Made by a program: the position numbers and the translations under genes
In this document: positions 7,328-41,937 of the stretch, in pieces
Numbering within the stretch: position 1 is the stretch's first letter
Layout: every line of letters begins with the position of its first letter
Notes under the pieces: model-generated
Database searches by the model: none
What the model was told of the DNA's origin: nothing
What the model saw: only the letters and a program-made list of their open reading frames with translations
NCBI RefSeq assembly: GCF_030463535.1
Contig: NC_132900.1
Location: 28,185,956-28,249,955 of the forward strand
Origin: Salminus brasiliensis
Lineage: Eukaryota; Chordata; Actinopteri; Characiformes; Bryconidae
Length of the DNA stretch: 64,000 nucleotides
Reading direction: 5' to 3'

Positions 7328-8537
7328 CTTATGTCAGTCATTGCGAAAGGCCTGTTTTAGCCAGTTTCCTGTGTCAAGCTGAGCATGTGAGCGCACCATA
7401 GATCAAGAAACACCCAATTACATTTGAACAGCGTATGCAAAAGCGGCAAACATCCATCATCACTTCTGCTCGCCTGTTAATTGCCAGGTTTAGTAGGCGC
7501 GTTAGAGCAGGGGTATCAGCAAACTGTGCCCACCCCTGCCCCTTTAGACTGACCTACCATGCTATAGCTCACTCTTACACTCATCAGCACTAAGAGAGGG
7601 ACATGCCACCACACACACCACTGAGGGATTCAGTTTAGACTCCCATTTTCTCCATTAATGCCGATTCCCTTCGCCTCTAATAGCACCTAAAGAGGAGCAG
7701 ATGTGCTTAGAATCTCATCGAATGTCAGAGTCTGTTCCATAACACTCTTCCTTTTTTTATCTGGATTTCCAAAATGTTAAACTCGGGGCACGTGTGCTCT
7801 CAGCAAAATAATGTTAGCTTTGTCTTCCCACAAGGACACTGGCCTGTTAGCGGCTTTTCTTTGGTTCAGGTTGGCCGGTTGTCCCTGAATCCCGTTACTC
7901 AAAAGAAAAGCGTAAATGCTCAGAAATGTGTCAGACACACGAGGCCCTCGCCCCTCGTAATCACCTCCCATCAAGAGACAATCTTTTAAGAATGTGTTTG
8001 TTAAAAATTCACAAAAAATTCACAGCTTCTGTTGCCTTGACCTCAGCACTAGTTCAGAACTATGTAGAGCGTTAATTTTAGAACTGTACTACCCCCTGGT
8101 GTCATTGTACAGTAGTGCAGGTTGGGGGGACAGTAGGTTCCTGTAGTTTGGTGCTTTATTTTTTTTTTTAAGTTAAAGTCAATCAATCAAACAATCAATC
8201 AATTAATGTATTAATAAATATTTCAATATTTCTTAATATTTCTAAATATTCAAATGAAAGAAAGTGTCCCATTCAAGGAGACCACACTCAATATATCGCA
8301 CCACTCATTCAGCGTCGCCATCACAATGCGCAACAGTCAGCTCACAGGATCTACAATGTCACACAATGCAAATTTAACCCAATAATAGATTTTTTGCTGC
8401 TTGATGCAAAAGGAAAAGTTGCATCATCATTTTATAGCTGCCTATAATTAGTTATTTTATATAGGTTTATCTGGGATACACTGCATTATTAGCATCATGA
8501 CATATTTATGGATTTTCTGGTGAACATTCCAATGGAA

Positions 8538-8538
<1 letters not shown>
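7328..8538. other. No gene seen
   Basis: Both strands were read without a supportable exon or repeat. AT content rises towards the microsatellite at 8,543. Confidence 0.35.

Positions 8539-8542
<4 letters not shown>

Positions 8543-8619
<77 letters not shown>
8543..8619. repeat. (TA)n microsatellite
   Basis: Uninterrupted TA repeat of about 77 bp, 0.65 kb upstream of the UEV-RBR start codon. Confidence 0.95.
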
Positions 8620-8622
<3 letters not shown>

Positions 8623-8946
8623 CTTTTTCTTCACAATTCCAGCTCCTGGTGCTTGTTTAGTTTCCCTTTACCCCTTAAAAGGCCTAGGGCCCGCCGGTGG
8701 GCCGAAATTTTGAACACAACTCCCTGTAATTACTGAGTAATACGCCTTAGTGTGTAATAAGCCTTGTTATAAGTTAAGGTTATAAGGCTTTACTGGGATA
8801 TTTCCAGTATGTGTCAGAAATGAGGGAGACGTAGCCCAGTCCTTAGTGTGTGTTGTCTTACTGCATATTGGTAGCTAAATCTCACACACCTCAATAGTTC
8901 ACTTCATAAGTGCCCAATAACATCTACACCACAAGTGTGTACTAGC

Positions 8947-9560
8947 TCAAGTGCGCAGATTGGGACTCGCCCCAGTTTCTCTGGCAACCGTGCAGTTTCG
9001 CCGACCCTTATACCATCCGTCCGCCTGAAGCAGTACCGCATTAGCCGCGTGCATGCCGTGTAGATCAGCGCTGCCCGTACTGCAGCCGCTGACGCCAGCG
9101 GCTCGAAAGAAAAGCAAAACTCGCTGCCTGGCGTGTAAACTTTGAGCTATGAGAGAACTTGTGGACATGAAACTACTCCCCGGCTGCACCTGACGGCGGA
9201 CAGCACACTAACACACTGCAGTCGGACTTTCTGGACGGGTTCGGGGGCAAATCCGGCCACTGTTATGTCGCTCGCTCCTGATTTGGAGTATAAAACATTA
9301 GCGGAGGTACGTTTCGCCTGGCGTTGAGCTAGCCTAGCTAATAGCTAACAGCTAGCTGCGCGGCTAACCCGGCTATTTTGCTGCAGAAGGTTGTCGTGCC
9401 TGAGCTTAAAAGCTCCAAAATGGAGCAAACAGTAGCTAAGTAATCAGGCAGGCAGTGGGTTTGGCTGGCACTGTTGGTAGCTAGCTAAATAATTGCGCGT
9501 TTCGAAGGGTAGCGAGCGAGCGAGCGGGCGCCTGTGCTGCTGAGCTGAGTCTGACCGGAA
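8947..9560 (+). promoter_or_regulatory. CpG-rich 5' flank and probable promoter of the UEV-RBR gene
   Basis: The sequence around exon 1 is rich in CG dinucleotides in an otherwise AT-rich, CpG-poor neighbourhood (examples: tcgccgaccc, cggcggac, agcgagcgagcgagcgggcg at 9511-9530). The start codon at 9265 and a GTACGT donor at 9307 lie inside it. No TATA box was identified. The extent is judged by eye and the start site is unknown. Confidence 0.45.
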
Positions 9561-12500
9561 TACTAATAGCCTAACTAGCCGCCACAGCACATGAACGCTG
9601 GCGACGTCTCCTTTCGGTCCATTTAGTCCGTTTGGGACGTCGGACTTTCCCTAACAGAGCCTAATATCCTAATATATAGCTAGCCTAATATCCATAGCCT
9701 AAGGTCCCAGGACCGAGTAAATGAGGGTGTCCTTATTTATCAGCAGCCTGCCAGAGGAGAAGCTGCTGAAGGGGTCCAGCTGCACTCTTTCCTGACACTT
9801 CTGCACGTTAAAATAGCTTAAAAGACAACTCTACAGGTGATGCACTACATGGACAAAAGTATTGGGACACCTGCTCATTGATTGTAGTTAGCTGTCGTCC
9901 ATAATCCAGGGTAATCAGCGACAGGAGCGTTAACTAGATTGTGAGGTCAGGTTGTTGGGTGATCATGATCACCACCTCATCTCATCTCATCCCCAGCTCC
10001 CCATCTCATCCCCAGCTCCCCATCTCATCCCCAGCTCCCCATCTCATCCCCAGCTCCCCATCTCATCCCCAGCTCCCCATCTCATCCCCAGCTCCCCAAC
10101 TCATCCCCAGCTCCCCATCTCATCCCCAGCTCCCCATCTCATCCCCAGCTCCCCAACTCATCCCCATCTCCCCAACTCATCCCCAGCTCCCCAACTCATC
10201 CCCAGCTCCCCATCTCATCCCCAGCTCCCCATCTCATCCCCAGCTCCCCAACTCATCCCCAGCTCCCCATCTCATCCCCAGCTCCCCAACTCATCCCCAG
10301 CTCCCCATCTCATCCCCAGCTCCCCATCTCATCCCCAGCTCCCCAACTCATCCCCAGCTCCCCATCTCATCCCCAGCTCCCCAACTCATCCCCAGCTCCC
10401 CATCACATCCCCACCATCCATCACCATCCAGAGAGCACAGTTCCTCCACTGCTCCACAGCTGGATACTGGAGAGGGGAGGGGGGGAGGGGGGTTGCTTTA
10501 TACCCCTCTAGCTAGGGGTGGGGCGATATGGTAAAAATACTATTTATAGACTACACAATATTTATCACAGTACATGTAATCACCGATCAAATACATCAGT
10601 AGTGACAGATTTTTATAAACGACTATTCAGATCCTCTCCCGTACTAAATACAGAGATTTTAAACCAGTCTAATTACACTGTTAGTAACGAAACCTGCAGC
10701 TCATCCATGTTTATTAAGCACTAACAGTCTCCTCCATATGCTTAGAAAAGCATACTGTGATCACGATCGATAAAATATGCCCAGTCATATTGCCCAGCTC
10801 TGCCTCTAGCCCACGTCTGGCATTAGGCAGCATGGTGCCAATAGGTTCATGCTTATCTGCTCCGGAGAGTCCCATTCTATTCTATTGGCAGTACGCCTCT
10901 ACTTCTAGACAGGCTGTGTGTGTGTGTGTGTGTGTGTGTACATTTGCACATCTATGTCAGCAATGGGTGCAACTTAAAGTAGCTGAATGCATACATTAGA
11001 AATGTCCGCAAACTTTTGGACATCCAGTGCACTTCTGGTTCTGCTTGTGTGACTAGTTTGTAGAAAGCTGAGGTTCATAGCAGGGCTTTGTGAAGAAAGC
11101 ATTGCCCAGGAGACATCCTGAAGTATCCAGACATCCCTTGTCATCAGGGAATCTCTCTACTTTACGTCCGTCTGCAGACGCAGGCCTTCATTCACACAAA
11201 CAGCTTGTAGCTGTGAGCTCCATAGAAATGCGCTGCCAATAAAGTTGCCCATGTCCAATACCAGCATCATCTAGAGGGGTACAAAGCCCTGGTTGTTGGA
11301 GCTGCGATCTCTGGAGTGATGGAGCGCCATCCATCCAGTACCTTTGGGATGAGCTGGAAGAAGCAGTAGCAGAAGCAATCCTCTAACATCAGCAGCTGAC
11401 CTCACTGACGTTTTTGGGGCTGAGTGCAGTCAAATCCTCAAACATCTAGTGGAGTAAAGGCTGCACAGGTAGGGTGGGGGGGGGGGGTCAGTTGATTTCT
11501 GAAGATATGTTAGATGGCAGTGAAGTAGTTTAATAAGGTAGGTGTAGTGGTGGGTTCGCGTTCTGTGTCAAGGCATTTTCCTAGTCTTCAGCATTCACAC
11601 CAGTGTCATTTAAAGCCATGCTGCAGTGTGTGTTGTGTGATCTCAGAGCTTAAAGCATGTATTAAATTGTGTACATCATTGCCTTGTATGGTATATTACA
11701 TCAGGGCAGATTGTATCTGAGGTTATTTACTTCAGGCTGCATTTTTGTTGTTTTTGAGTAAGCATTAAAAGCCGATCAGCATGGTTTTATTCAAGAATGC
11801 ACCAAGATCAGATTTTCAAGTATCTGGTGATACCGAGTACCAGTACCGACACCAACTCTGGCTTAAATACTGAATAGACTGCACTTTTTTATATCTGATC
11901 CCAAATCATATTTAATAAGCTTGAAAGAACAGCGTTTACTGGTTGAGTAACTGCAGGTTTAAAACGTTTCAGAGCTGTGAAACCCAAAAAATTGCCACAA
12001 TGCAGAAACACGTGAAGCTAGGGAAGCAGGTCGAGCTTAACCAGATTATAACTGATTTGTAATTGGTGTTTAAATTCACATTTCAGAGCAGTGACAAAAT
12101 TGCCTGTTAAGAAACAGAAAAGTGCTTATTCAGCCATTTCACATTCAGGTGCACAAGCTGCTAAAACTCAACTTTTGGGTTCAGAACCAAAAAAAAAAAA
12201 CACCACATGGAAACAAAGTGCTGATGTAAAATTTCCATTAAATGTCTGTTTAATGGTCATAATGGTAATAGCTATTTATGACTGGCTTTTACTGGTTATT
12301 TAAACAAAGTATGCAAACAAAAATGTACTAAAACTAAGTGTAGGGTGTCAGTAAGCTTCATGGTATCACTGTTTTCTATTGCAGAGACTGATACTGTGTG
12401 TAAGTGCCGTTTACTTTGTGGGTTAGTTTACTTGCTTGCTTTCACTTCAAGTGTGTTTATTATGTTTATTATTGTCTTTTACAGTGTAACTATGTCTTCC

Positions 12501-15451
12501 CGGCTGACGTTCTGGCTGATGTCAGGGAAGTCACAGCTGCTTTTCCTGATCTGCAACTGCATGAGGAGTATTACTGTAAGTTTAGTTTTTATTACAAGAA
12601 GACCTGCTGACCTGCTGTTACTCACTTCAATATGCCGTATCGCCCATGCTGCTTCCTGTTGTGTTTTGCAGTCTGTTGAGTTTGTTGTGCAAGCAAACTT
12701 TCGACCGTAAATGGTGTCTTTTTGCCTCTGCAGATTATCCGAACAACGACAGGAAGAAGCTGGTTAACTTGCGTGGCACCGTCCCCATTCTTTATGAAGG
12801 TAATAACAAATTCCACAAAAAAAAAAAAAAAAGAAATTCTTCCCCACCATCACATGCATAGCTCAGGAAATGTGTGTTTCACAAGGTAACAAATACAACA
12901 TCCCAGTGTGTATCTGGATTCACGAGACCCACCCACAAAACCCGCCACGGTGCTACGTCTGCCCTGCTCCTTCCATGGTGATTAACAGCAGGAGCAGCAG
13001 TGTGGACGCCCGAGGCCATGTGCGTCTTCATTGTCTCAGCAACTGGAAAACTGTGAGTCAAGCATTCACACCTATCCATATGACAGACTCCGATACCATT
13101 TCCAGTGCGGGATTTTGCAGCTTCTTATTATTTACTTGACAGGGCTGGTCCAACCTGTCCATTGTCCTGGAGGAGATGGTTGCTGCATTTCAACGGGAAA
13201 CACCCCTTTTTGCCACTCGTCCAGTACAAGCTGACAAACTACCTCCTGGCACAAAACATTCACCTGCAGAATGGCACGATCATCCCAGACCTGCTTCGAC
13301 TCATGGCAGGTCAGTAGCACAAGCTGAAACACTAATGGGACTGGAATTTTAGAGGAGTACCCACCCCAGTCTTTAAACACTGGAAAAAAAAACATTTTGA
13401 TAAATATAAGTATAAATACAGTACTAAAACAGTATACATGAAATGATCTGAATAGACCTGATATTATACATTTAATATATTGAAGTGAATTTATTGGTTC
13501 ATATTGCAATTACAGTGTAAATTACTATATATCAGCATGTCAACCCTTGGTGTAATTTGAAGGATTTGCCTGCATTATTGTTGACCAAGATGATTTACAG
13601 TAGAGCTGGGCAATATGACAATATTTTATGGTGATAAATGATGTTATTGTGATACACAATATGCTTTACAAGCATATCGAGGATATTAATATTTTGGGTC
13701 ATGCGTCCTGCCTAATATCAGCAGCCGGAGCCCGAAAGAGCACAAGGGGCCTTGCTCTCTCCGTGTAGGTAGATGTCGCTCTCTCTCTCCCCATATCACT
13801 TCAGTGTGATGCAGTGTGATCATCAGAGCTGGTACCCAGTGCTCATCTCTGAGCGTGTTGGTTGCCCAGTGGTGTTGTATCGGCTGCAGTACGAAAAGAG
13901 CATTACATGTGATGGGGAGAGTAGGTTGTTTAATTGGGTAATTTGAAAAGTATTGGGGGAAAAATATATAGGCTCAAAATTAAGTAAAAAAATCTATATA
14001 TTTTATATAAATATATAAACATATATAAAAATAAGCAGGATAAAGACATATAATAAAATGCCAAATCTTGTAACAGCTTTTGTTTGTTTTGTGTTTTTGC
14101 AGTTGGCCTCACGCTGGCAGTAACTCTGTGCAGAGGAAATCCTCTCACCCTGAGATGTTCCCGTCCTCTATGAGCCATTCTGCCAGCAACAGTAAGCTCT
14201 CCCCTCCCTTCCTAGCGCCTGTTTTGCACAGAATGATTTCCTGAATGAGAATGAGTTCTGTTTAATCATAAAATCATAAACTATTGCGACACTGCAAACT
14301 TTCGTTTTAGTTTTCTTGCTTCTGTCTCTGCTCAGCCCTACCCAAGAGTGCCAAGGGTGCAGATGAAGGGAGCAGTGTGAAGAGATCCTACACACAGGAG
14401 CTGTTAGACTTTGGAATAACATTTGGAGCACCAGACGTCCAAAGCAACCGTGCCACAAACCCATTCATCAGCAGCGGCACTGGTAAAACCTTGTGTTTGT
14501 TTGTTTATTTTTTGTATGTTTTGTATCATGGCAAGGAACAGACAGACCCAATTTCCATTTAGAGACATGCTAGACATGGTAAGGTATTCATCAGGGGTGT
14601 TTCTAGACTCTACTTGTTGGACTGGGTCACACAGAGGATTTAGAGGGGCACAGCTGTACTCTCTGCTTGTCTAATAATATTATTTAGTAATAATAGTCAT
14701 TTTAATAATATGGCAACAACTAGTTAGAAATAACATTCTGGTTATTATTATAGTTATTATATTAGAACTATTACTGTGATACATGCACTAAATAAATATA
14801 CATGTACAATTGTTATTCCCTCTTTGCATCATCTGCCTTTGCTTCAGGGGTCTAATATGTAGCTATTTTTGGTAGGTTATACAGTTAAAAGTGGCCTAAC
14901 CCGAAACATATATCAATGAGCTATTATTACGTTGTCTGTTGCCTGCCAAATGTCAGGGACTTTGACTTATGAACTTTATTGTCATGTAGACTATACAGCA
15001 GGAGCGCACAGCTAAACGGGATTGCGTTTCTACAGACTCCAGTGTGCAAGTATAACACAAAATAATTACGCTAGACAAGTAGACAGATCAGACAGCAGCA
15101 ACAGACATAAAAATATACATTTACATTACATTTAGATTTACGGCATTTACCTGACGCTTATCCAGAGCGGCTTACAAGGTTACTTGTATTACAAGAGGTG
15201 GGCCAATGTAGTGTTGGGAATCTTGTCCAAAGACTCAAAGATTATTGGTGTAGCGCAGCATAGTCACCCAGACCAGGAATCGAACCCCAGTCTCCCACAG
15301 GGTGTGGTAACCCAGTGGCAGGCAGTGGTGTTATCTGTTGCACCACACCAACCATTCTATACACAATATATGGCATACAAAGCATGTGTAGAAAAATATA
15401 TTGCACATAGTTAGAGTATTGCACATTGTTTACAGTGGTACCCACTCTGTG

Positions 15452-15511
<60 letters not shown>

Positions 15512-18500
15512 TGCTGTGGCATTATGGGAAATGTAGTGCCTGGTGGTGGTGAATTTGTGTGACGTGAACTTTAGTTCTGCTCAGCAGTGCAGGGTAAAAT
15601 TGACTTTTTGACGCTGTGATTTTATATATATATATATGTGTGTGTGTGTATGTACAGTATATATAACATGTATGTATAACATATTGTTGTGTCAGTTGTT
15701 TGTTACAGTTCAGATTTCCAGCAGCAAACGTTATTTTTGTTTTATTTAAATAAAAGATTTTGTCTTTTCTAGCGCCAAACACAAATGTCCCTAATCCAGA
15801 TGACCTTGATCACCTGTTTAAAAGCCTTCAGCTGGAGAGAGTTGTCAATATGTACCAGCTTGACCACAGAGACAGAGGTAAGAAGCTGAAAGTGAAGAAT
15901 GCCAAATCACCTAATTTAAACTAATTAAACAAATATTTCCTCTGAAATGTTTATAAGCAGTTATTTGCATATATAAATGCTCCTACAGAGGATAAAATGA
16001 CACAAAATCCACAGATTGTCTTTTATGAATTCCTTAAATAAATATTAATTAATTAATATGAGCTCTTTTGTATTCTTCTTTTATAGATATTCCCCATGCT
16101 TGGAGGCAGAGTCAGGGGCATGAAGACGGTCGCTTTGCACAGCCAGGCTTACTGGATAATCGGCACAGGGTGTTGGTCAGCCATCTCCCCGTAGGGGTCT
16201 CTCCAAACAAAATGAAAAACAAGCTCACTATTTACTTCCAAAGGAAACAGAACGACGGAGGGGAGGTGGTGGCAGTGTTGTACCCTTCTGCCCAACCAGA
16301 TCAGGCTGTGGTCACCTTCAGACACTACAAAGGTACCTGGAATGAAGTGATCTTAAAACTAGGGGTGTTGATCTTTGACCTCATGATTAGTTTGGGTACA
16401 TAGGTCATAAATGCTGATGCTGAAACTCAATGCAGAGGTTTAAATCAGGACAGGTCTAAAATGATTAAGCACTGAGCTTAGTGAAAAACAGTAATTCAAG
16501 CTGTAATTTTCTCAGAAGACGGCTGGGAATTACCAGCGGAACCCATGTAAATTTAATCCCATCTGAATAGGGTTTACAACATATGTCTGAATTATTGACA
16601 TGGAAGTGGAACACTGTAAAAAAAATAAACCCATCTTATGCAGACTATCAAATCATAAACTTGGTTTTATGCCCAAGTCTTCATTAATAAATTAAGATTC
16701 TTTCAAAAGTCTGGGTTTTTTTGGAGTACGCTGTGCCATGCCAACCTAATTTGTGTAAACATTTCATGCAGATGCAGAGCATGTTCTAAGAGAGCCAAAC
16801 CGGGTCATTACGGTGGACGACCAGCAAGTTCTCATCCAGGTGAAAAAGTTTGAGGGCTCTCGGGTAAGTGGACTGTAAGTCAGAGCTCACGGAGTCAAAC
16901 GCCTTCTTCCACATTTCTCCTCTAACTCTGAACCCTTCACCGCCAGGTGCTCATCCCGGAGGGCGTTGGGGGCGAGAAAGCAGAGATGTTCAGGACCATC
17001 CTGAGTCTGGAGGGCTGCAGTTTCAGCTCTGCAGATGTGCTAGAAGCTGTGCAGGCGTGCCGAGACCTCCCGTCCGCACTCAAGTACCTCTCTCATGACT
17101 GCCCCATCTGCCAGGAGCAGATGTCCTTCAGCAAGGTGAGATAACACTAGGCCCTTTCTTCTCAAGGTTAGCAGAGCTGTTCTCAGTCCGAGTCCTGGGG
17201 GAGTTTTGTGTTTCTCCTGCTTTAGCACACCTGATTTAATTCAACTGTCTATACAGGTTTGTTTAGTGTTAAAGAAGTGCTTTGCTTAACCAAAATGCTA
17301 TTCAAAGTGCTAGTCTGCTGCTTTGGAGAAATAGAAACCACAGAGGCAAGTCTATTTAGAGCACTGTATTACTGACACTGTATTCACACTGTCATCTATA
17401 AACATGAACAGAAACCACATAAGTGAATCTACTCTAAACACTAAATGTAAACTCTTGCTACTTTTTCTGTCCTCAGATGATCACCATGACTCACTGCTCT
17501 TGTACGTTCTGCGAAAGCTGCTTCAAGGCCTACTTTTCGTCTGTTATTAAAGAGAAGAGCATCGTCCATGCGGTTTGCCCACTGTGTAACCAGCCCGATG
17601 TACGTGGAGCAGGACGCAGGGAGGAGTCCATGGAGTACTTCAGTCTTCTGGACACGCAGGTCTGCAAGCGAGACAGGGTTTAACATGTTTCATTTGATGC
17701 ATTGTCGTTTTTTTTTTATGTGTCTGAACAGGTGAATGAGACCTGATTTAGAATGTTTTTATTCTATAGCTGTCTTTTCTGCTCCTATCTGCTATCTGCT
17801 GCACACAGATCAGGCATTATCTGGACCCACAGACCCACGAGCTGTTTCAGAGGAAACTGAGGGACCAGGCTTTGCAAGAGATGCCGAACTTCCGCTGGTG
17901 TGCTCATGTAAGCAGTTCTCTGTCTCAGTCCTTCAGCACACCTACAGTTTCAGCAATGCTAATGTTTTAGTGAAGACGAGACGGCATGTGTACATTTGCT
18001 TTTATGTAAATTAACAACCAGTGGTTATACCTCACTACTAGCAATATTCCCTAGAGATTTCCAGATCAATATATATATATTTTTTTACCCCCTATCTGAT
18101 TCGAATCTCTTAATTCTGACTATCGATCGTTACTGATCTTTGTATTTCTATAAATAATACAGCAACGACTGTTTTAAACTCTGGTGTCTGAAGAACCTCC
18201 TCATCGGTTCTGAATGTGCTGTTCAGAGCTGGTTTAGAACCAAAGAAAGGAGCGTGGTTCTCTCGCTGGTAGAACAGAGCGCTTCCACCATACTTTGGGT
18301 TTTAACCAGGCGTAATTCAGGAGTAAAGACTGGATGGGAGGAACGTTAGATCTTCCCAAATGTATGTAATGGACTAAAATATCTTTGTTGCTGCACTACT
18401 ACAGCCAAACTGGGTGTTATTTCGGCAGCGTGGAGAGGAACGGCAGAAAATACGACAGTTAATCTGTCAGAAGAATATCTAAACTCTCCACTCTTCCAGA

Positions 18501-21500
18501 TAATAACACACTCTTTACCTGCTGCTCTGGGAGCAGTCTGCTGTTGCTGTGTCACATTTACAACAAGTTTTTCTCTTCCCCAAACTCTCCGTAACACCAT
18601 AATTAATTAATGCAGCGGTCGTGGTTCTGCTGTTGAAATGTACACTCTGTAACTGCAGCACTATATAAGGTGGAATAAAGAGTTAGTATTAGAGACCAAC
18701 TTTAGCTTTTGTGTTGGCTACTAACTGGTAACAGCACCACACTTATCAGTTCAAATAAAGCTCTGTTTTGTTTTGCTCACCGAAATAAAGTCACAGAATA
18801 TTCCAGGATAGTTTTTGAAAAAATAAGAAGTTTGTCTGCAGCAGCTGAGGATCACGCCTGTTAATTGGGCCTAGACGACAACAAACCTTAAAACCTGATA
18901 CCCAGTCCATTAAAAACGCCTGGATCAGCCACTGATCCTGAGTCACTGGACTGTATCTGGACATCCCTTATATTCACATTTGTGTGTTTGTTTGTGTAAA
19001 TCTCTCTCTTTCTCTCTCTTTTTTGCTCTCTCTTTTGGCAGTGTTCTTTTGGGCTTCTCCACGAGGCTGACAGACTGAGGATGGATTGCCCCAACTGTGG
19101 AAAGAGCACATGCTTTAATTGCAAGAGCCCTGTAAGTAAAGCTTCTACAAGAGGCCATTACAGCTCTATGTCACCATGCTCACAGTGCTAATTTGCAATT
19201 ACATAATGTAAGGACTACTTCCACCGAAACTGAATTACTTTGTTAATGATGAATGAACATGAGTCACTGATTACTATCATGCGTTTAAGAATGTCTATTT
19301 TTCTGATATTGTTAGCATTTTTGAGGGGGGGGGGGGTTGCAAGCTGATCGTTAAAGGTTCTTCTTATTCAGTTATGCTTTTAATTTGGACATCTCTATTC
19401 ATTACTGCATGTCTGTTGCAGTGGGCTTCCCAACATGAGGGACTATCCTGTGAGAAGTTCAAGGAGTGGCAGCAGCTGAATAGCCCAGAATATCAAAACT
19501 CACGTCTGGAACTTCTTCTCAGCAGGAACAAAATAGGTCTGATGCTAAGTACTATAAATACATATAATGTGTAAATACCTAAATAAGCTATGGTAATATC
19601 CCAGGTTATTTAGATTTAGGTTAAGGATGGGCAGTCGAGTATTTCTAAGTGTATTTCCATATTGCCCACCAATAATACATATAGTCCAGCCCACTGTTCT
19701 CTCATACCTGCATCTGTAATAATTCTTTTGTCCTGGGTTATGGTGTCCTTCCCACAGACAAAGCTCTCTGTAAATATACTGCCTTGTTTTTTTTTCACAG
19801 ATTGTCCAAAATGCAAGTTCCGCTTCTTTCTATCTAAAGGTGGCTGTTTACATTTTAAGTGCACTCAGTGCCAGCACGAGTTTTGTGGAGGCTGCAGTCG
19901 TCCATTCAGAAACGGCTCTGTGAGTATTTCCCTCTCTCTCAGCTGTCTCACCAAGCTGTCCTTTTATTGGGCATTCATAGAACACCTGCAGGTATACTGT
20001 GTCCAAATGTTTGTGGACACTTCTTCTAAAATATACAGTCAGCTACTTTAAGTCGTCCCTGTTTCTGACACAGTTGTGCAAACGCACACTCGCACACAGC
20101 TTGTGTAGGCCCCGTAGAGAAGCTTTGCCATGTCTAATAAATTCCAGGTTTGGGCTAGAGGGATATAAAGCCTCCCCTGGAATTGAGCTGGAATGATGAT
20201 GGTGCTCCATCCAATCCTTTTGGGTGTGGTTGAGGACATCCTGAAACTATCACTGAAACAAATCTAATCCTCACAGCAGTGCTCCTCCAAAATCTAGTAG
20301 AAAGCTTTATTCCCTGGACAGTAGAGACAGTTACTCCAGCAAAAGCAGGAAAAGCACTCTTTTAATACATTTGATTCCAGAAGAAATCTTGTGTGCACTT
20401 GTGTGGGTTCGTTCAGGTTTGTCCCATAAGAATCATGACATCACCAGCATTCATGCTATTTTAGTAATGTAGTTATTGAGTTAGTAAGATTTTGTATTTG
20501 AAAAGAGATGTCACACAACCCCTATTAAATACAAAAATAATCTTATTCCTTCAAGCATTTGTGCCACAAACAAGCAAGACTATTTTGGTGTGATTTGGCC
20601 TCTGATGTGGGGCTGAGCTGCAAAACAGGCAATAAAATTTCATTTCTCAAAAATGGTGCCAGCACAAACAGTGAAAACGAAGATCTAATTTTATTTAATT
20701 TCTAATTTGAGGCTAGCAGGGTTCGAGATCTTGCAGGTCTGTACTTATATATTATTATATATAATTATATATTATTATATTATATATGAGTGGCTTTATT
20801 GCTGAGATGCTCCAACCTCTAAAGTATCTAACCCTAAATTACTCACTGTGTGCTGAGGTGGCTGCCCACCATTCCGGTTGTGTGTTCTCACTGTGTAAGT
20901 CACTAGTATGTGTTTACTGCAATAGGTGAGTTAAGTGGCAGTAAAGGTGTACTTAATCTCACTCCTGTAGCTTAATAATATGTTAATGATAAAACTTACA
21001 GCATAATACTGACTTGTTTGTGCATCGTTTGTCATATTTTCACTGTCTTCAGCTGAGGAAATAGAATTTGTATTGTTTGTCTGTGCAGGCATGCGATTTC
21101 TCCGCTGAATGCGGCACTAAAGGGTTACACGCCCACCACCCTAGAGACTGCCTGTATCACCTCAGAGACTGGAATGTGGCCAGACTGCGCAGCCTGCTGC
21201 AGGTGGGTGCTTTCTCTGAGGCTCTCTGTTGGTGAAGTCCCTCTTTTGGTTTCACTGGCTTTGTGACTTACATCTACTTGCTTTTCCAGCACCATGGAGT
21301 CGCGCACCCGCTCATGTACAGACAGAGGGAGGGATCTATTCAGGGTGGTCAGAGAGGTATTTGATTGATTAGAAGCTTTAAAAAAAAAAAAAGGGCATTG
21401 TGTGTAAAACCGCAGTCTGAGATTGTATCTCGTAAAGATTGATGTCTTTGCTGCTCAGTTTGCTCTGTATTAAAATCTGCAACATTTAAAGCATAGTGTA

Positions 21501-22580
21501 ATTCATTTGTAAATAATTATTTTTAATTATTTTATAATTAATTATATTAAATGCTGTAAATCATGATTGCATCTCTTGCAGTTGTGTGTGCCGTGTTGGA
21601 GCACAAAGAGATGGGGAGCATGAGAGAAGAACCCTGTGGGCGGCCGGCGTTACCAGAATACAATAGTTACTGCACGTATGTCACACTTTCACGTTCTACA
21701 CCACTGCCACTCCTAATTATCGATTTCAGCAAATGATCCATTTATATACACCAATCATCCATAACATTAGTACCACTGACTGGTAAAGTAAAAAAAAAAA
21801 CATTAATTATCTTCATCTACAGTGGAATCTGTCAAGGGGTGGGATCTGCATATTAGACAACAAGTAAACAGTCAGTTCTTGAAGGTGATGGGTGTAAAAA
21901 GCAGGAAAAATAGTTAAGCGTAAGAATCTGAGACACTTTGACGTGATCCAAACGGTGATGGCTAGAAGACATCTCCAAAACAACAGGCAGGTCTTGTGGG
22001 TTTTTTTCTGATATGCAGTAGTCAGTATCTACCAAAAGTGGTCAAAGAAAGGACAACCAGCTGGCGACAGGGTCATGGGCACTTAAGGCCCTACCTCACC
22101 ACTTACAGTACAACAACATGATCTTGGAGCCAGAGACCACAGGACACCTTTCGAGGTGTTGTGGAATCCATATTATGGATTATATATGGTATCAATGTTA
22201 TGGCTGATCAATGTATGTCATATATTGTAAACGCAGAACTCTCAGAAACAACTCAGAACAATGGGAAGGGGGATAACGCTATTAAAAGCTCAAAACCTGA
22301 AAAACAGGGAATGGATTGTGGGGAAAATTTAGTGTTTAATAATCTTTAATTCACTCTAGAAGGTATTTAGTAAAAGCAGTAGCGGTTCATCATTGCTGCT
22401 TTTGTCTTCTGTGGCTTGAGCACTTTCCAAAATGATTATATGAATAATTATATGAATACTGTAATACTGTAATAAACTCATACAAACCAGTCTTTAAAGG
22501 TAGAATGTTTAGAGGCTCTGATTAATATCCTTTTGGTGCAAATTGATGAGTTTATATACGTGTGTGTGTGTGTGTGTGTG

Positions 22581-22634
<54 letters not shown>

Positions 22635-23684
22635 CATAACATTGTACAGAACACTGTATCAGAATTGCATGAATAATCTGACTCGTGTTTTTGTGGTTGT
22701 TTGCTGAAGGCTGCATTACAAGGAGTGTTTGGTGGAGCTGATTAAACAGAATGGATTAGACCCAGTGGTGCTGTTCAGTGAGCCAGAACTGCGGGCAGAA
22801 CTGGACCGCTGGAAGGTTCCCATCCCAGAAAAACAGCCTCTCGAATCAGACAGGCTCTACAGCGAACGCCTACGAAAGGTCAGACGGGCTTTGAGTTACT
22901 GTTAACTGAGACAGTGGGGTGACACTGATTTGTGGACGGATTCAGCATTTCTATTTAACTTTTTTTAATCCACTAATGCACTGTAACCCTTGGAAGTCTA
23001 AGGCCAGAGATTCTTTGATCGTTTGGAGTTCATGTTTCTTGTGAAAACATACCTTTACTCGTGTTATAGACGAGCACCTTGACCTGTTGTCATAGCCTTG
23101 TATCTCCAGATGTAAGTTACGCACAATCTGGCAAAGATGCTTTACAGTTGAACCGTATTTCTGTGCTGTATTATAATTGCAAATATGTTAAAAGAAACAT
23201 CAAATTTGATGATCCGCTCCTGTTCGTAGACTCCAGAGGGTTAAACAACACAAACGCACAAAGAGCTGTTACACACCAGAGAAAAGCCAAGGCTTTGTCA
23301 ACAAAAGAATACAATGAGCTTCTAAAACTTACTCATGTACACAACCCATTTTCTAAGTGAGTGACCTGGAATATTGCTATACTGCTTCTTGGCAATGAAA
23401 CCCCATAATTACTACATTTACATTAAAGACTGGACTGTTAACACTTCACACTGATGTACTGCTGATGCTACATTTAAATGAATGTGATGCTCTCACTTCA
23501 GATCCTGATCGAGAGGGTTGCTTTGACTCGTGTTACTGCTCCACGACTAAAGCCTACAGTTCCTCCAACCCCATCACCCTCTCCCTCTACCCCCCCAGCT
23601 GCTGGGGCTCCTTGGTACTCCGTGCTGAACCCAGGCCGAGCCATACCCGAAGACTCTCAGCTGCTGCTGCTACTCAATGACTGA
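9265..23684 (+). CDS. HOIP/RNF31-like RBR E3 ubiquitin ligase with N-terminal UEV and central RRM/NID-like domain (21 coding exons, 877 aa)
   Basis: Coding exons: 9265-9306, 12485-12575, 12734-12799, 12886-13052, 13143-13309, 14103-14191, 14336-14482, 15773-15877, 16087-16332, 16772-16863, 16947-17135, 17477-17659, 17809-17907, 19042-19131, 19422-19536, 19801-19919, 21089-21202, 21290-21356, 21582-21675, 22710-22878, 23502-23684. All introns are GT-AG, phases match throughout, and the sum is 2,634 nt ending in TGA. Domain order by residue: UEV about 15-149, Ser/Pro-rich linker 150-318, RRM/NID-like 319-402, short helical stretch 414-452, RING1 456-504, IBR 559-601, RING2 631-661, LDD-like region to about 820, and a Pro-rich tail. 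The RBR half follows human HOIP almost motif by motif, so a ubiquitin ligase using a RING-HECT hybrid mechanism is expected, possibly making linear chains (inference). The HOIP N-terminal PUB and NZF modules are absent. The ATG was chosen because it opens a short phase-0 exon in a CpG-rich region. Exon 1 is the least certain exon, as only 14 codons support it. Confidence 0.88.
9976..10409. repeat. 19-bp minisatellite, about 23 units
   Basis: The unit is ctcatccccagctccccat, with an 'ccaactcat' variant interspersed. Because 19 is not divisible by 3, all + strand frames stay open and give Pro/Ser-rich peptides with a 19-residue period. The single ancestral unit is visible in other copies of the host element (near 30,360-30,400 and 61,400-61,440), so the array grew inside the element. 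Confidence 0.92.
10513..10800. mobile_element. Small nested element with ATATTGCCC-type ends
   Basis: The left end has gggcgatatggtaaaaata and the right end reads catattgcccagctctg, an imperfect terminal inverted repeat. The same GGGCAATATGA...ATATTTTAT signature recurs at about 13,604 and 62,486. The insertion separates two halves of the family A element around it. Boundaries are approximate and the superfamily is not determined. Confidence 0.5.
11190..11475 (+). mobile_element. Partial family A non-autonomous element
   Basis: It carries the ordered landmarks cagcttgtag, 'ctagaggggtacaaagccc', 'ctggagtgatgga', 'gcagtcaaatcctc' and 'tagtggagtaaaggctgc'. It lies in the opposite orientation to the adjacent copy at 9,848-11,028. 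Its right terminal repeat was not seen. Confidence 0.6.
12485..13309 (+). CDS. UEV (ubiquitin E2 variant) domain, exons 2-5 of the RBR ligase gene
   Basis: These exons encode about residues 15-149 and resemble the TSG101/UEVLD UEV domain. Shared features are NYVF, an [17 protein letters not shown] segment, [12 protein letters not shown], and a C-terminal W-L--VLEEM helix followed by ETPLFATRP. The UEV fold is an E2 without catalysis. In TSG101 it binds ubiquitin and P(T/S)AP motifs (established knowledge). At the position of the E2 catalytic cysteine this protein has Arg113, in the context GHVRLHC. A cysteine, Cys116, lies three residues later and is off-register. It should therefore be catalytically dead as an E2. 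Exon 5 continues into a Pro/His-rich linker. Confidence 0.85.
13600..13720. mobile_element. Fragment of the ATATTGCCC-type element
   Basis: The start gagctgggcaatatgacaat followed by ATATTTTATGG and 'tgtgatacacaatatg' matches the copies near 10,513 and 62,486. It lies in intron 5 of the UEV-RBR gene. The right boundary runs into a different repeat. Confidence 0.45.
13712..13970 (+). repeat. SINE-like dispersed repeat, copy 1
   Basis: It shares ordered blocks with 53,735-54,055: atcagcagccrgagyccrara, 'ttgctctctcc-gtgggtagatg-cgctctctctct', a 'gagcgtgttgg' block, a 'ctgcagtac' block, and a 3' end with a GGGGGA/AAAAT-rich tail. It lies in intron 5 of the UEV-RBR gene. No tRNA-like head was identified. 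Confidence 0.55.
15117..15357 (-). mobile_element. tRNA-derived SINE (copy in intron 7)
   Basis: Read on the - strand it begins ggttggtgtggtgcaacaga (A-box-like), has a box-B-like GGTTCGATTCC near 15,277-15,287, and ends in the teleost SINE tail GATAAGCGTCAGGTAAATGCC...TGTAAATG. A sister copy lies at 33,089-33,318 on the + strand. Such elements are copied by LINE reverse transcriptases that recognise the shared tail (established for the class). Confidence 0.7.
15454..15506. repeat. (TA)n microsatellite
   Basis: Uninterrupted alternating TA of about 53 bp in intron 7 of the UEV-RBR gene. Confidence 0.95.
16087..16863 (+). CDS. RRM/NID-like domain, exons 9-10 of the RBR ligase gene
   Basis: Residues about 319-402 read [12 protein letters not shown], then a K-KLTIYFQ segment, then [11 protein letters not shown], then [15 protein letters not shown] and [13 protein letters not shown]. 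This order (LVS-LP-G beta strand, helix, IYFQ, GGGEV strand, V-F strand, AE-VL helix) is typical of the degenerate RRM-like folds in NMI/IFP35 (NID) and the N-termini of PARP10/PARP14. Those domains mostly act in protein interaction in interferon-linked proteins (established knowledge). That it mediates protein rather than RNA binding here is inferred. The exon join at 16332/16772 is phase 1. Confidence 0.75.
16947..19919 (+). CDS. RBR catalytic module (RING1-IBR-RING2), exons 11-16 of the RBR ligase gene
   Basis: RING1 ligands are C456, C459, C474, C476, C479, C482, C501 and C504. The short C-x-C spacing in THCSC matches HOIP, which has TSCEC at this position. IBR ligands are C559, C562, C577, C580, C585, C588, H596 and C601. 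RING2 begins DCPKC and carries GGCLHF. Its Cys645 aligns with HOIP catalytic Cys885, and His647 follows in the CLH context. RING2 then has C650, C653, C658 and C661. No zinc ligand is missing. Just before RING1, residues 414-452 (MFRTIL...[16 protein letters not shown]) look like a helical pair. This could be a remnant UBA, but it is shorter than the HOIP UBA. Confidence 0.9.
17908..19041 (+). other. Intron 13 of the UEV-RBR gene
   Basis: The 1.1-kb intron has no exon-like segment. A stretch near 18,886-18,970 (gtccattaaaaacgcctgga, then 'tcagccactgatcctg') is a fragment of the element found at 62,840-63,370. The acceptor at 19,041 is preceded by a pyrimidine-rich run. Confidence 0.5.
19997..20390 (+). 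mobile_element. Family A non-autonomous element
   Basis: The left end is gtgtccaaatgtttgtggaca. It is followed by 'cagctactttaag', 'cagttgtgcaaacgcaca', 'ctagagggatataaagcc', 'gatggtgctccatccaat' and 'ctaatcctcacagcagtg'. It lies in intron 16 of the UEV-RBR gene. The right terminal repeat is degraded. Confidence 0.65.
21089..23684 (+). CDS. LDD-like C-terminal region plus proline-rich tail, exons 17-21 of the RBR ligase gene
   Basis: Exon 17 encodes [15 protein letters not shown], which matches the HOIP linear-chain-determining domain (HHPRDCLFYLRDW in human). Exons 19-20 encode a V-EHKE...[16 protein letters not shown] segment and then [11 protein letters not shown], also as in HOIP (VIEQKEV, CGKETPAGYAGLC, HYKEYLVSLI). 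Human HOIP ends soon after the last helix. This protein instead has about 50 extra residues rich in Pro, Thr and Ser from residue 831, ending SQLLLLLND. The stop codon is at 23682-23684. The tail's function is unknown. Confidence 0.85.
21743..22214 (+). pseudogene. Deletion derivative of a Tc1-like transposon with transposase N-terminal remnant
   Basis: Both ends carry the CCATAACATTA-type motif seen in fish Tc1-like elements: atcatccataacatta at 21,755-21,770, and the inverted form 'gttatggctgatcaatgta' at 22,197-22,215. Between them the + strand frame reads KRKNLR-FDV, VMARR and [14 protein letters not shown]. These resemble the helix-turn-helix region of a Tc1 transposase and are interrupted by a stop. 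The catalytic DDE part is missing. It lies in intron 19 of the UEV-RBR gene. Confidence 0.65.
22561..22631. repeat. Compound (GT)n-(TA)n microsatellite
   Basis: About 20 bp of GT repeat is followed by about 45 bp of TA repeat, in intron 19 of the UEV-RBR gene. Confidence 0.93.
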
Positions 23685-27083: not shown

Positions 27084-29586
27084 CTCAAATATGGTAGCGT
27101 TAAACAGGCAGCACCACACCGATTGCCACACATTTTGCATCCTATAGAACCATTACTACTGCTAAGTTTTAATAATCTGGCCTGTAGTTTATAAAACAGG
27201 CATCTGTGATTCTATATTTCGAGAAAACTGCTCTCCATTATTTCCACTAAAATCATTTGTGGGATTACTGCAGTTTTGTTTTGTTAGCTTCTCTCAAACA
27301 TCCCCTTTAATTAATCAGCCTGTAAGCAAGACTTTGAGTTTGGGCTCAAATGACTCATTTAATTTAGCAGCAGATAGATCTACTGTTGCGTAGCTGCTGC
27401 TAACTACTTCTATCCAGACAAACCGTGTGAGTTAATGGCCAGGCACTGTAATGCTAATGTAAGCACTGTGTGTGTGTGTGTGTATCTGTGTGTTAGTTTG
27501 AGACAGAATGTGTGACACACCCGTGCACTGGCAAACACAGAATCTTCCTCATGTTGGAGAAAATCTTGTCCACCACTTCAGGATCTCTGTTTGAGCCGAA
27601 CTCTGTGGCAATGATTGACTGATTGATCTCTGAAACAAAATAAGGATCATTCAGGTTCAAACTTCTACATCTTTTAAATGGTACCATATAACTGTATTCA
27701 AGTGTACACTAAGAATTACAGCCTTTTTAACACAACCCCTACATTACACAAGATCAAAAGTAATTGGACTGAGTAAATTGACTAAACTGACTGATGACCA
27801 GCAGTTTCATGACCAGGTGTGGCCCATGTTCTTTGGACAGATGACCAGGACTAATTTGTACCAGAATGATGGGAAGAGAAGAACATACTGGGGGCACGAG
27901 CATGGACATGTTTGGCTACCAATTGAACTGGATCACTTGTGTTTATTGATGCTCAGATAAAGTAAAACCCTGAAAAACTGATAGGTCAGCACTTTAGAGT
28001 ACAGACTATGACTCTGACCATGCTGTAAATCCAGCTCAAGAGATTCTGGTTTTAAATCTTTAAAACTCAAAAAAGACTACGAACATAATCCAAATCTTTC
28101 TGCACCCGTTCAGAGAACAGAGCCAACATGACAAAAACTGTGTCTCTGTCCAATTACTTGACCTGACTGTATACGTGTTTCTGTACGCCGCACATTTTGG
28201 AATAAGCACTGACCTTTCTGGTCCGACACCTGGAGAGGTTCTCCATTGCAGAATGCTCCCTTCCCCCGCCGTGCCGTGTACATCTTATCCTCCATACAGC
28301 TGTACACCACACCAAACTCTAACTGCAGGACAAGCACAAACACTGCACTTTAGACCAGCTGAATAACAGCATATATAAAATCAATGCGTAATATACCTAA
28401 TATAGCGTCGCTGTCATGCAAAAACCTCGAATCTCTTTTTTTGGCATTTTTCGCTTTTTGACATTATGCAAATCAGGCAGTTTTTTTACAGTGTATAAAT
28501 ATAAATGTGGACATATTAAAAAGTCTCTTACCTTTTTATCAACAGCAAAGCCAATACAAACAGCAACGAAAGGGTACCTGCAGCAGAAAAGCTCAGTCAG
28601 CTCGTCACACTGTAAAGACAGTCCATGTAAAAACACATGTAACGGCCTCTAAGGCCATGTTGGTGTAGAACTGGGATGATTGCAGCACCCGTGCACAAAA
28701 TTAGTGGTTCCGTCCACCGGGTCAACGATCCAGGTTGGATTGTCTGATAGAACACAAGGCTGCCCAGCAGCCACTGACTCCTCACCAATAAAGCTAAAAC
28801 AGACAGGAGACAGTAGTTAAAATACCAGATGCCATTTAAATACAGTAAAACCAGGTCTGAGTAAACACAGTACAGCAGAAAGCTTCAGTACAGAGTAAGA
28901 GTGGGACTGACGGTCACGATACCCATGATTCGGGAACTTCTCCTTCACAGAAGCAATGATCAGCTGCTCCACTTTCTGGTCAGTTTTAGTGACCAGGTCC
29001 ACCGAGGAGCTTTTGCACATGATCTTCATGTCATTCTGCAGAGCGTCCCTGACAATCTGTGTGTATAAAAATGAAGGAAAGAGCCAAGTGTGCTGATCAA
29101 CCATAACATTAAAGCCCAATATTGCGCAGGTCGCTGTGTCGAAGCATGCGACTCCAGACAACACAGCATTAACTGCATTCACTCCCTATGAGCCTTGGTC
29201 CCGCGAGACCCTCTCACCAGTTCATCGGTTGTTCTTTCTTGAAGCCCTTTTGGCAGGTACTGACCACTGCATTCCTGCCTGATGTTTCTGACCCAGTCAG
29301 TCGTCCAGCCATTAGTCGTATGGCTCTTGTCAAAGTTTTCAGCTTCTAACACCAACATTAACATCCTCTTCAAGAACTGACTGTTCACTTGCTGCCTGAC
29401 ATGTAGATCCCACCCCTTGACAGCTGCCATTGTGACCAGATAATCAGTCCGACCCGATTATTAGTGAAAGGGAAATGATGTTTTATTCTTCTTTAAAGAC
29501 TGTACACAAACAAACACCCCTACCTCTCCCGCCTTCCGGGCCACAGTCACAGCGTGGTCCATGACCTCTTGCCAAAGATCAGGCAT
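25133..29586 (-). CDS. impa1: Inositol monophosphatase 1 (8 coding exons, 279 aa)
   Basis: Coding exons in transcript order: 29586-29524, 29056-28923, 28793-28689, 28577-28532, 28322-28214, 27629-27521, 26403-26252, 25254-25133. All introns are GT-AG and phases match; the total is 840 nt ending TAA. The protein is 279 aa (human 277) and starts [13 protein letters not shown]. Metal and catalytic residues are intact: Glu70 in GEES, Asp90 and Asp93 in [10 protein letters not shown], and Asp220 in HCWDVA. Residue numbers coincide with human IMPA1. The enzyme is cytosolic, Mg-dependent and Li-sensitive. It hydrolyses inositol monophosphates to inositol in the phosphatidylinositol cycle (established for the family). 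A splice acceptor 30 nt upstream of the ATG (exon start 29,616) indicates an untranslated first exon further upstream. Intronic Tc1-like remnants are noted separately. Confidence 0.95.
26405..27520 (-). other. impa1 intron with (TA)n tract
   Basis: The 1.1-kb intron between the sixth and seventh coding exons carries a (TA)n tract at 27,030-27,080. A (GT)n run follows at about 27,468-27,482. No other coding segment was recognised. Confidence 0.55.
27030..27080. repeat. (TA)n microsatellite
   Basis: Uninterrupted alternating AT of about 51 bp in an impa1 intron. Confidence 0.95.
27740..28170 (+). pseudogene. Internally deleted Tc1-like transposon remnant
   Basis: The left end reads gatcaaaagtaattggact, and the inverted counterpart 'tgtccaattacttgacc' lies near 28,147-28,163. 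The + strand between them encodes a short peptide, MFFGQM then [13 protein letters not shown]. It resembles the segment around the second catalytic Asp of a Tc1-like transposase (LF-DET...NDGKRRVW type). The element is too short to encode an enzyme and is frame-broken. It lies in the impa1 intron between coding exons 5 and 6. Confidence 0.55.
29091..29462 (-). pseudogene. Deletion derivative of a CCATAACATTA-type Tc1-like element filling impa1 intron 1
   Basis: The left end has atcaaccataacatta at 29,096-29,111. The body matches the copies at 3,986-4,345, 21,743-22,214 and 59,985-60,400: 'aggtactgaccactgcat', 'cctgatgttt', 'gactgttcacttgctgcctg' and 'tgtagatccca'. It occupies most of the 467-bp intron between the first two coding exons of impa1. 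Confidence 0.6.
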
Positions 29587-41400: not shown

Positions 41401-41788
41401 GTGAGCACCCTCAGGGCACGGTCCACGTGTAGCACATCGCCCGTCAGCTGCACAGTCCGCCACAGCCTTGGGTCCCAAGCCAGGTTGTACCAGCGGCGGC
41501 ACACGCGTGCACAGCGGCACAGCTGATTGGTAGGCAGGTGGGCGAAGATCTGCAGGAAGGCGTGATCCGGCAGAACGTCGATGGGTGCCCCTTGCTGGTC
41601 CCGAGGCTGCCGCATGCACCGCTGAGGGTGCGTGAGACCGGCAGGAGGCGGCGAGTGCACCATGGCAATCGTCTCTGCGGTGAAGGAGGAAGATGAAGTG
41701 GAGGAGCCATTGAAGAGGGCAGGCGAGGAGCGAGGAAGGATGAGAGCCGGACTGGGCGTGCTCAGCGTCCGCATGCTCACGTCAGAGT
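38473..41788 (-). CDS. fbxl7: F-box and leucine-rich repeat protein 7, last two coding exons
   Basis: Exons are 41788-41183 and 39209-38473 (stop TGA at 38,473), joined in phase 1 across a GT-AG intron (SG|CSKV). They encode about 447 residues. Human FBXL7 has 491, so about 44 N-terminal residues lie in an earlier exon not found here. Visible: the Ser-rich start SMRTLSTPSPALI, then MVHSPPP, then the F-box IDVLPDHAFLQIFAHLPTNQ, then CRCARVCRRWYNLAWDPRLW. About ten cysteine-type LRRs follow (for example CRRLTDRGLYTVAQCCPELR) up to the C-terminus CVIEHTNPAFF. FBXL7 is the substrate receptor of an SCF ubiquitin ligase (SKP1-CUL1). Reported human targets include Aurora A and survivin. No frame break is seen. 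A GTG that opens the long frame at 41,780 is internal, not a start. Confidence 0.95.
39210..41182 (-). other. fbxl7 last intron
   Basis: The 1,973-bp intron between the two visible exons. A tRNA-like SINE fragment lies at about 39,258-39,335 on the + strand (GGGTTCGATACCC-type B box near 39,315-39,327). A (TAA)n run lies near 41,110-41,128. No exon-like sequence otherwise. Confidence 0.6.
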
Positions 41789-41937
41789 CTGAGGAGAAAG
41801 GAAGAGAAAACGTGAGGACAAAAGAGAAGAGGAAAGACTAATTCAACCCTTAGCCCAAATCAGTCAAGAGATTTTTGGGGGTCTTTAGTTTTGCCCTGGA
41901 GCTACAAAGCTAATGTTGCTAATAGGACAGTATGACA

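Follow-up and report, generated by a model that had tools for sequence, protein, structure and literature searches.

The DNA analysed here, which we call the window, is a stretch of 64,000 nucleotides from the fish Salminus brasiliensis (contig NC_132900.1, positions 28,185,956 to 28,249,955 of the forward strand, counted below from its first base), and this text concerns a gene on its plus strand in which a UEV domain resembling that of TSG101 and an NID/RRM domain precede a catalytic half like that of HOIP (RNF31), a ligase of linear (Met1-linked) ubiquitin chains. An earlier note, made from the letters of the window alone, had predicted a single spliced frame of 21 exons, and this was borne out on reading the raw sequence: from the ATG at 9265 to the TGA at 23684 the exons give one open frame of 877 codons, and all 20 introns begin with GT and end with AG. 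Intron 1 carries a tandem repeat of about 20 bases, noted by eye, at 9985-10420. The features of the gene, with the evidence for each, are these:

9265..23684 (+): whole coding span, 21 exons, 877 amino acids (open frame, GT-AG introns, orthologues)
9265-9306, 12485-12575, 12734-12799, 12886-13052 (+): exons 1-4 (splice model, as for the next four lines)
13143-13309, 14103-14191, 14336-14482, 15773-15877 (+): exons 5-8
16087-16332, 16772-16863, 16947-17135, 17477-17659 (+): exons 9-12
17809-17907, 19042-19131, 19422-19536, 19801-19919 (+): exons 13-16
21089-21202, 21290-21356, 21582-21675, 22710-22878, 23502-23684 (+): exons 17-21
9265..13309 (+): exons 1-5, UEV domain, residues 24-144 (Pfam, PDB matches, intron comparison with a tsg101-like gene)
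14386..14424 (+): conserved linker motif, residues 225-237, in exon 7 (alignment columns)
16087..16332 (+): exon 9, core of the RRM/NID, 246 nucleotides, phase 1-1, so that in-frame skipping is possible (splice model, isoform pairs, PDB match)
16772..16863 (+): exon 10, end of the RRM/NID (splice model, Pfam)
16947..17135 (+): exon 11, putative UBA-like helical segment before RING1, and the first RING1 Cys pair (weak similarity, exon end)
17477..17659 (+): exon 12, remainder of RING1 (PDB match, Cys/His alignment)
17809..19536 (+): exons 13-15, RING1-IBR linker helices and IBR (Pfam, PDB match, Cys/His alignment)
19801..19919 (+): exon 16, RING2, with the predicted catalytic Cys645 (19845-19847) and His647 (Cys/His alignment, family alignment)
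21089..22878 (+): exons 17-20, LDD, with Arg695-Asp696 (21164-21169) equivalent to HOIP Arg935-Asp936 (Pfam, alignments)
23502..23684 (+): exon 21, end of the RBR-LDD match and a proline-rich tail with terminal LLLLLND (splice model, PDB match)

The Pfam scan of the 877-residue product, whose matches lie above the curated cut-offs unless otherwise stated, places the domains in the order UEV, NID/PARP14-type RRM, IBR domains and HOIP LDD. The UEV match covers residues 24-144 (E 5.8e-36); the middle domain matches RRM_PARP14_1 at 330-397 (2e-10), NID at 317-352 (7e-8; 33.3 bits against a cut-off of 25) and RRM_PARP14_3 (7.5e-6); IBR follows at 541-601 and IBR_1 at 627-670, and E3_UbLigase_RBR (PF18091), the LDD of HOIP, at 701-794 (2.9e-21), with RING1 covered by RING models below their cut-offs only. 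The search for UEV, NID/RRM_PARP and RBR that the earlier note had proposed thus recovered all but RING1 above threshold, and the marks of the RBR class of E3 are present, namely RING1-IBR-RING2 with a catalytic Cys in RING2. Among solved structures, residues 454-827 score 322 bits against human HOIP, to which they are 40% identical over 373 aligned positions, and 33 bits against the next RBR protein, ARIH2, in keeping with the HOIP-specific features that had been read through the LDD; residues 27-146 score 88 bits against TSG101. The nearest solved relatives of the middle domain are the NIDs of NMI (1.3e-14) and IFP35 (2.2e-6), followed by the RRM of PARP10 (2.2e-4), and an NID match was recovered in 12 of 12 segments chosen from NID-bearing members of the family, so that the description of an interferon-protein-type module stands. 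Pfam finds a single NID stretch, not a tandem, no ESCRT-I (endosomal sorting complex required for transport I) part, no UBA_HOIP, and, at E up to 1, neither PUB nor RanBP-type NZF.

The catalytic half is closely kept throughout the family. Across the 156 family entries fetched, which include isoforms and so are not independent, C645, H647, R695 and D696 (HOIP C885, H887, R935 and D936) are each retained in 150; of the six remaining entries per site four or five are gapped and one or two differ, the deviating entries being P0123 at all four sites and P0092 at H647, while R695 and D696 are kept in 150 of the 151 entries with a residue there. The 27 Cys/His positions of the HOIP RBR-LDD that we take to be its ligand positions are the same in all 15 sequences that were checked, and the claim that the RBR zinc ligands are intact is thereby upheld. 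In HOIP, changing R935 or D936 to alanine is reported to abolish linear activity (PMC7125101), and H887 is the proposed base for the attack of Met1 (PMC5135002). The four frog proteins printed keep the catalytic residues, and since groove residues of the UEV and the NID have been lost in frogs, the ligase half seems to be the part that selection has held longest.

That the gene is a paralogue of rnf31 and not a rearranged copy of it follows from the remainder of the genome. In the source assembly (1.07 Gb, 103 contigs) LDD matches occur at three loci: the window gene, a locus at 27.388 Mb of the same contig (C27), some 0.8 Mb away, and one at 27.463 Mb of a different contig (C26); all 18 RBR-LDD exon-level matches (E up to 0.01) fall within them. 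The four UBA_HOIP matches of the genome lie at C27 and C26, none at the window gene. Of ten open reading frames scanned at these two loci, eight matched and two did not: UBA_HOIP is found at both, UBA_RNF31 at C27 (the C26 exon lay outside the scan), PUB at both (above the cut-off at C26, just below it at C27), and both also have RanBP zinc fingers (three hits in all, each under the cut-off). Judged by these exons, C27 (27370000-27399999) and C26 (27455000-27484999) are two canonical rnf31 copies coexisting with the window gene, which bears out both the proposed search for canonical rnf31 alongside and the view of a HOIP paralogue with an exchanged N-terminus. The C26 stretch also holds an open reading frame with MASLSTQ, which resembles the MASLTD at the zebrafish rnf31 morpholino site.

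The phylogeny of the RBR half, another check the earlier note had suggested, agrees with this. The tree of the RBR-LDD half has 40 rows: the window protein, 36 chosen from the 156 family entries (among them Rhinophrynus P0142, in which no UEV is matched), and three rows of canonical type, namely human HOIP and both fish copies, without a shark canonical RNF31. The 37 window-type rows, with sharks, coelacanth, frogs and ray-finned fishes among them, and the three canonical ones stand on opposite sides of a 100/100 branch, which is long, 1.02 on each side of a root set by outgroup choice, with no invertebrate HOIP among the rows. We infer that the split from canonical HOIP predates the divergence of sharks and bony fishes.

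The introns suggest how the two halves came together. Between the pre-RING exon and the final exon of the LDD, 10 of 10 introns have the same position and phase as in both canonical copies; both flanks were compared for seven of them and one flank for the other three, since the equivalents of exons 18 and 21 were left out of the comparison, and at C26 the acceptor of the exon 17 equivalent is ambiguous but allows the same phase. At the other end, introns 2/3, 3/4 and 4/5 of the UEV coincide in place and phase with those of a tsg101-like gene of the same genome (contig C2, 17.697 Mb), and the acceptor of exon 2 has the same phase and lies within one codon. As both halves kept their introns, the fusion would be one of two intron-bearing genes joined by DNA rearrangement and not by retroposition; tree and introns together point to an origin, before the split of sharks and bony fishes, in which a TSG101-type 5′ half would have been joined to a HOIP-type 3′ half. 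The break point would lie just upstream of exon 11, because this exon is weakly similar to the equivalent canonical exons (9.6e-5 and 4.7e-4 in tblastn with composition correction off; in hhalign P 2.2e-5 over 33 columns, at a probability of only 76.5%); it also shares its 3′ end with the equivalent exon of both copies. The Pfam family UBA_RNF31 does not match this pre-RING segment except weakly in Latimeria (0.073). Six other regions of the source genome together give eight NID matches, a core of NGGGE type being seen in some of them; the NID exon of the window is none of the eight.

The window gene is the orthologue of entries named si:dkey-181m9.8 or “RNF31(-like)” in many fishes, the closest among the matches listed (the best 120 of 168 proteins) being that of Astyanax mexicanus, at 89% identity over 100% of the length; the existence of such full-length homologues argues that the architecture is not due to chance. 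Full UEV-NID-RBR forms occur in sharks and rays, the coelacanth, holosteans and many non-acanthomorph teleosts, and a further search (the best 120 of 283 proteins) brought in chondrichthyans and five frogs (Ascaphus, Discoglossus, Hyperolius, Rhinophrynus and Mantella); a UEV is matched in three of the five frogs and an NID in none. The proposed look at other fish and tetrapods therefore yields relatives in sharks, coelacanth, ray-finned fishes and frogs, and two restricted readings, that of a fish-specific gene and that of a gene lost in tetrapods, were dropped once relatives were seen in sharks and frogs. No amniote appears among the named entries of the best 120 of 283, several entries being unnamed, and absence from amniotes is not claimed. 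One frog entry, P0124 of Mantella aurantiaca, is a predicted protein that seems to contain the pre-RING/RING1 unit at least three times and in which Pfam matches no UEV; faulty annotation may be the cause. At the other extreme of the chain, many of the first 60 relatives share the 10-letter ending encoded at 23649-23684, or a close variant of it.

The middle domain is less constant. A profile of the NID region matches 56 of 123 proteins at E < 1e-10 (one of them, P0048, by its exon-10 part only), 7 weakly and 60 not at all; among these 60 are 54 with names of fishes that we take to be acanthomorphs, 5 without a name and a gar entry that is truncated (P0061). Mapped on the tree, the NID changes state twice inside the family (24 rows with it and 10 without, the states being set by hand, and three partial or isoform-only rows and the canonical rows left out), and the two changes are read as losses in acanthomorphs and in frogs. 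Exon 9, moreover, has 82 codons, and in eight pairs of database entries one lacks this block or its equivalent: for Astyanax, Scleropages, Anguilla, Conger and Amia the comparison is within the genus, and for gar, bichir and Hemiscyllium it is across genera. Additional gaps occur in the entries of bichir and Hemiscyllium, and that of Astyanax is truncated at the C-terminus; most of the shortened entries are labelled isoforms and look like predictions. Judging from these eight pairs, the NID is probably present in some of the ligases made by a single gene and absent from others. Between UEV and NID, the linker motif SYTxEL..GI.F has a mean column identity of 0.84 among rows with letters, about the level of the RING where it is present; the rows of Amia, Polypterus and Latimeria either lack it or do not align there.

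As to the UEV, the residues scored were those of the TSG101 groove given as contacts of its native peptide (PMC7650771), first in 43 rows picked out of the initial 123 proteins and then over all 156 entries. In the 43 rows T58 is kept in 42, Y63 in 36, Y68 in 43, N69 in 39, I70 in 41 and M95 in 41. Because the groove is better conserved than the residues of the ubiquitin-binding hairpin, a reader of PTAP-type peptides is favoured over a ubiquitin reader of TSG101 type; of the “ubiquitin/PTAP-type reader” put forward earlier, the PTAP part is thus supported and the ubiquitin part less so, the hairpin being altered. E2 activity of the UEV was rejected: at the position of TSG101 Tyr110, which we take to be the vestigial catalytic site, the window protein has Arg, and the family varies. 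The vestigial site of TSG101 is placed within T99-H115 in PMC9944984. Binding of the protein to itself through an internal P(T/S)AP motif was likewise dropped, since the window protein has none and only 1 of 156 family entries has one.

On this evidence the window gene would rather probably encode a single-chain Met1 ligase with its own targeting modules, independent of the linear ubiquitin chain assembly complex (LUBAC). By homology with HOIP, RING1 would accept ubiquitin from the E2, Cys645 would carry it as a thioester, and the LDD, through Arg695/Asp696, would hold the acceptor ubiquitin for the attack of its Met1, with His647 as the base. Independence from LUBAC is proposed because two parts of HOIP are missing, the HOIP-UBA, through which HOIL-1 and SHARPIN activate HOIP and which also autoinhibits it, and the PUB, the binding site of OTULIN and SPATA2-CYLD (PMC5135002); without the former there would be no need for HOIL-1 or SHARPIN, and without the latter no tethering to OTULIN or SPATA2-CYLD. 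The UEV may bring the ligase to P(T/S)AP-type motifs, in ESCRT-linked proteins or at sites of viral assembly; the NID, which the splicing of exon 9 would put in or leave out, may add the binding of NMI/IFP35-type partners.

With HOIP the gene shares RING1-IBR-RING2-LDD, the catalytic Cys and His, the Arg-Asp pair of the LDD and ten of ten compared introns; it differs in having UEV and NID in place of PUB, RanBP-type NZF and UBA_HOIP matches, and lies across the 100/100 branch. With TSG101, and with UEVLD, which we take to be a relative in the UEV family, it shares the UEV, the residues of the PTAP groove and UEV introns, whereas the ESCRT-I part is missing on Pfam evidence and the ubiquitin hairpin is altered. 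Its middle domain, which passes the Pfam thresholds of both the NID and the PARP14 RRM families and has its PDB match in the NID of NMI, likens it to NMI/IFP35 and to the RRMs of PARP14 and PARP10, with the difference that a single NID is fused here to an E3, while in NMI and in IFP35 two NIDs have been studied, and it is through these that the two proteins form their complex (PMC8698480). LUBEL, the HOIP orthologue of Drosophila, shows that a ligase of HOIP type need not depend on partners such as HOIL-1 or SHARPIN: its RBR-C makes linear chains, and the full-length protein is reported to need no partner (PMC5090701). Compared by description only, LUBEL resembles the window protein in its HOIP-type RBR-LDD and in lacking PUB; it is reported to carry a UBA unit next to RING1 and to work without HOIL-1/SHARPIN, and it differs in its B-box, NZF and two UBAs, the figure legend of PMC5090701 giving no UEV or NID.

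Several observations weigh against a linear ligase guided in this manner. None of the 15 sequences checked keeps the His of HOIP H889, and 11 of the 15 have Glu at the position of D983. Over the 156 entries the groove is less uniform (among entries with a letter, T58 in 131/140, Y63 in 106/140, Y68 in 139/142, N69 in 127/142 and M95 in 126/146), 28 of the 43 rows have Ala for S143 of the TSG101 groove, and the three UEV-bearing frog members have lost several groove residues; in the hairpin (V43-D46), V43 and N45 are replaced, and F44 and D46 are mostly Y/F and N in those 43 rows. The absence of the NID from acanthomorph fishes and the five frog entries means that the targeting parts are not essential everywhere. 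Finally, the scan upstream, at 8265-9400, found no exact interferon-stimulated response element (ISRE), no gamma-activated site (GAS) and no kB site, and four ISRE cores within one mismatch where about two are expected, so that promoter elements for interferon or NF-kB, the scan having given nothing convincing, were dropped.

The replaced H889 and D983, the long branch between the two types and the 40% identity to human HOIP would suit a HOIP-type E3 of changed linkage or activity, which makes another chain type, attaches single ubiquitins or serves as a weak pseudo-ligase scaffold; the equivalents of C885, H887, R935 and D936 in 150 of the 151-152 aligned entries, the 27 invariant Cys/His positions and an LDD recognized by Pfam in all but P0015, P0040 and P0046 of the best 120 entries speak against this, and we hold it unlikely. 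It is somewhat doubtful, too, that the UEV acts mainly in cis, as an inactive E2-like lid or a holder of ubiquitin that releases autoinhibition, and not as a PTAP reader: an interaction of the TSG101 UEV with the HECT domain of Nedd4 is reported to relieve the autoinhibition of that E3 (PMC11512315), and the autoinhibitory HOIP-UBA (PMC5135002) is missing from the window gene, but the groove residues are better conserved than those of the hairpin. Hardly credible is an artefact in which a neighbouring UEV-RRM gene and an RBR gene have been merged, or a canonical rnf31 has been given a misjoined N-terminus. Nothing was found in its favour, and it is opposed by the identical joined architecture in chondrichthyans, coelacanth, holosteans and teleosts, by the two canonical loci with their own N-terminal exons, and by two contigs labelled “lgn”, of 3011 and 2887 nucleotides, which encode complete relatives of 879 and 867 amino acids (P0020 and P0022) and have no room for introns; these contigs, which we infer to be RNA-derived, also support one continuous product of the gene. 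Thus, as far as tested, neither outcome that the earlier note named as contrary to its reading was found: the UEV and RBR exons are not those of separate genes, for they recur joined from sharks to teleosts, and no canonical rnf31 N-terminus is spliced to these RBR exons, for the canonical N-terminal exons sit at two other loci.

LUBAC is described as the only known builder of Met1 chains in vertebrates (PMC10445738), and HOIP as the only ligase known to make them (PMC5135002). If the linear ligase proposed here is real, linear-chain signalling may have a second, independent maker. Put more broadly, and only tentatively, jawed vertebrates may have possessed since before the sharks a second Met1 writer outside LUBAC, acting at P(T/S)AP/ESCRT sites and, with exon 9, at NMI/IFP35 complexes, and escaping OTULIN/CYLD tethering for want of a PUB. 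Were the paralogue active, fish and frogs would have a second such writer, and the knock-down of rnf31 in fish would leave some linear ubiquitin; the zebrafish rnf31 morpholino target encodes MASLTD, which corresponds neither to the beginning of the window gene, MSLAPD, nor to that of its cyprinid relatives, MSRV. The gene would also be a natural test of the design of HOIP, whose catalytic half has been retained for more than 400 million years, here without PUB, NZF and HOIP-UBA, while the targeting parts come and go.

The gene is, then, already annotated in many fishes as si:dkey-181m9.8 or “RNF31-like”, without a functional account that we could find: the open-access papers searched gave no mention of dkey-181m9.8, and among those listed by text searches there was no description of a UEV-RBR fusion of HOIP type. 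Two salmonid virus studies (PMC12575339 and PMC6723134) do name an “RNF31-like” product; in the ubiquitin proteomics of one, the protein rises 2.2-fold on infection with infectious salmon anaemia virus (ISAV) and falls with infectious pancreatic necrosis virus (IPNV), and in the other the gene lies 378 kb from a single nucleotide polymorphism for IPNV survival. Neither report can be assigned to the window-type gene or to a canonical copy.

Elsewhere in the window, all on the minus strand, the following were seen:

28820-29185 (-): open frame with an inositol monophosphatase match (1.5e-7)
36245-37052 (-): pieces of a Tc1/mariner-type transposase, in two open frames
38476-41837 (-): open frames with an F-box and leucine-rich repeats, an FBXL-type gene on the strand opposite to the window gene

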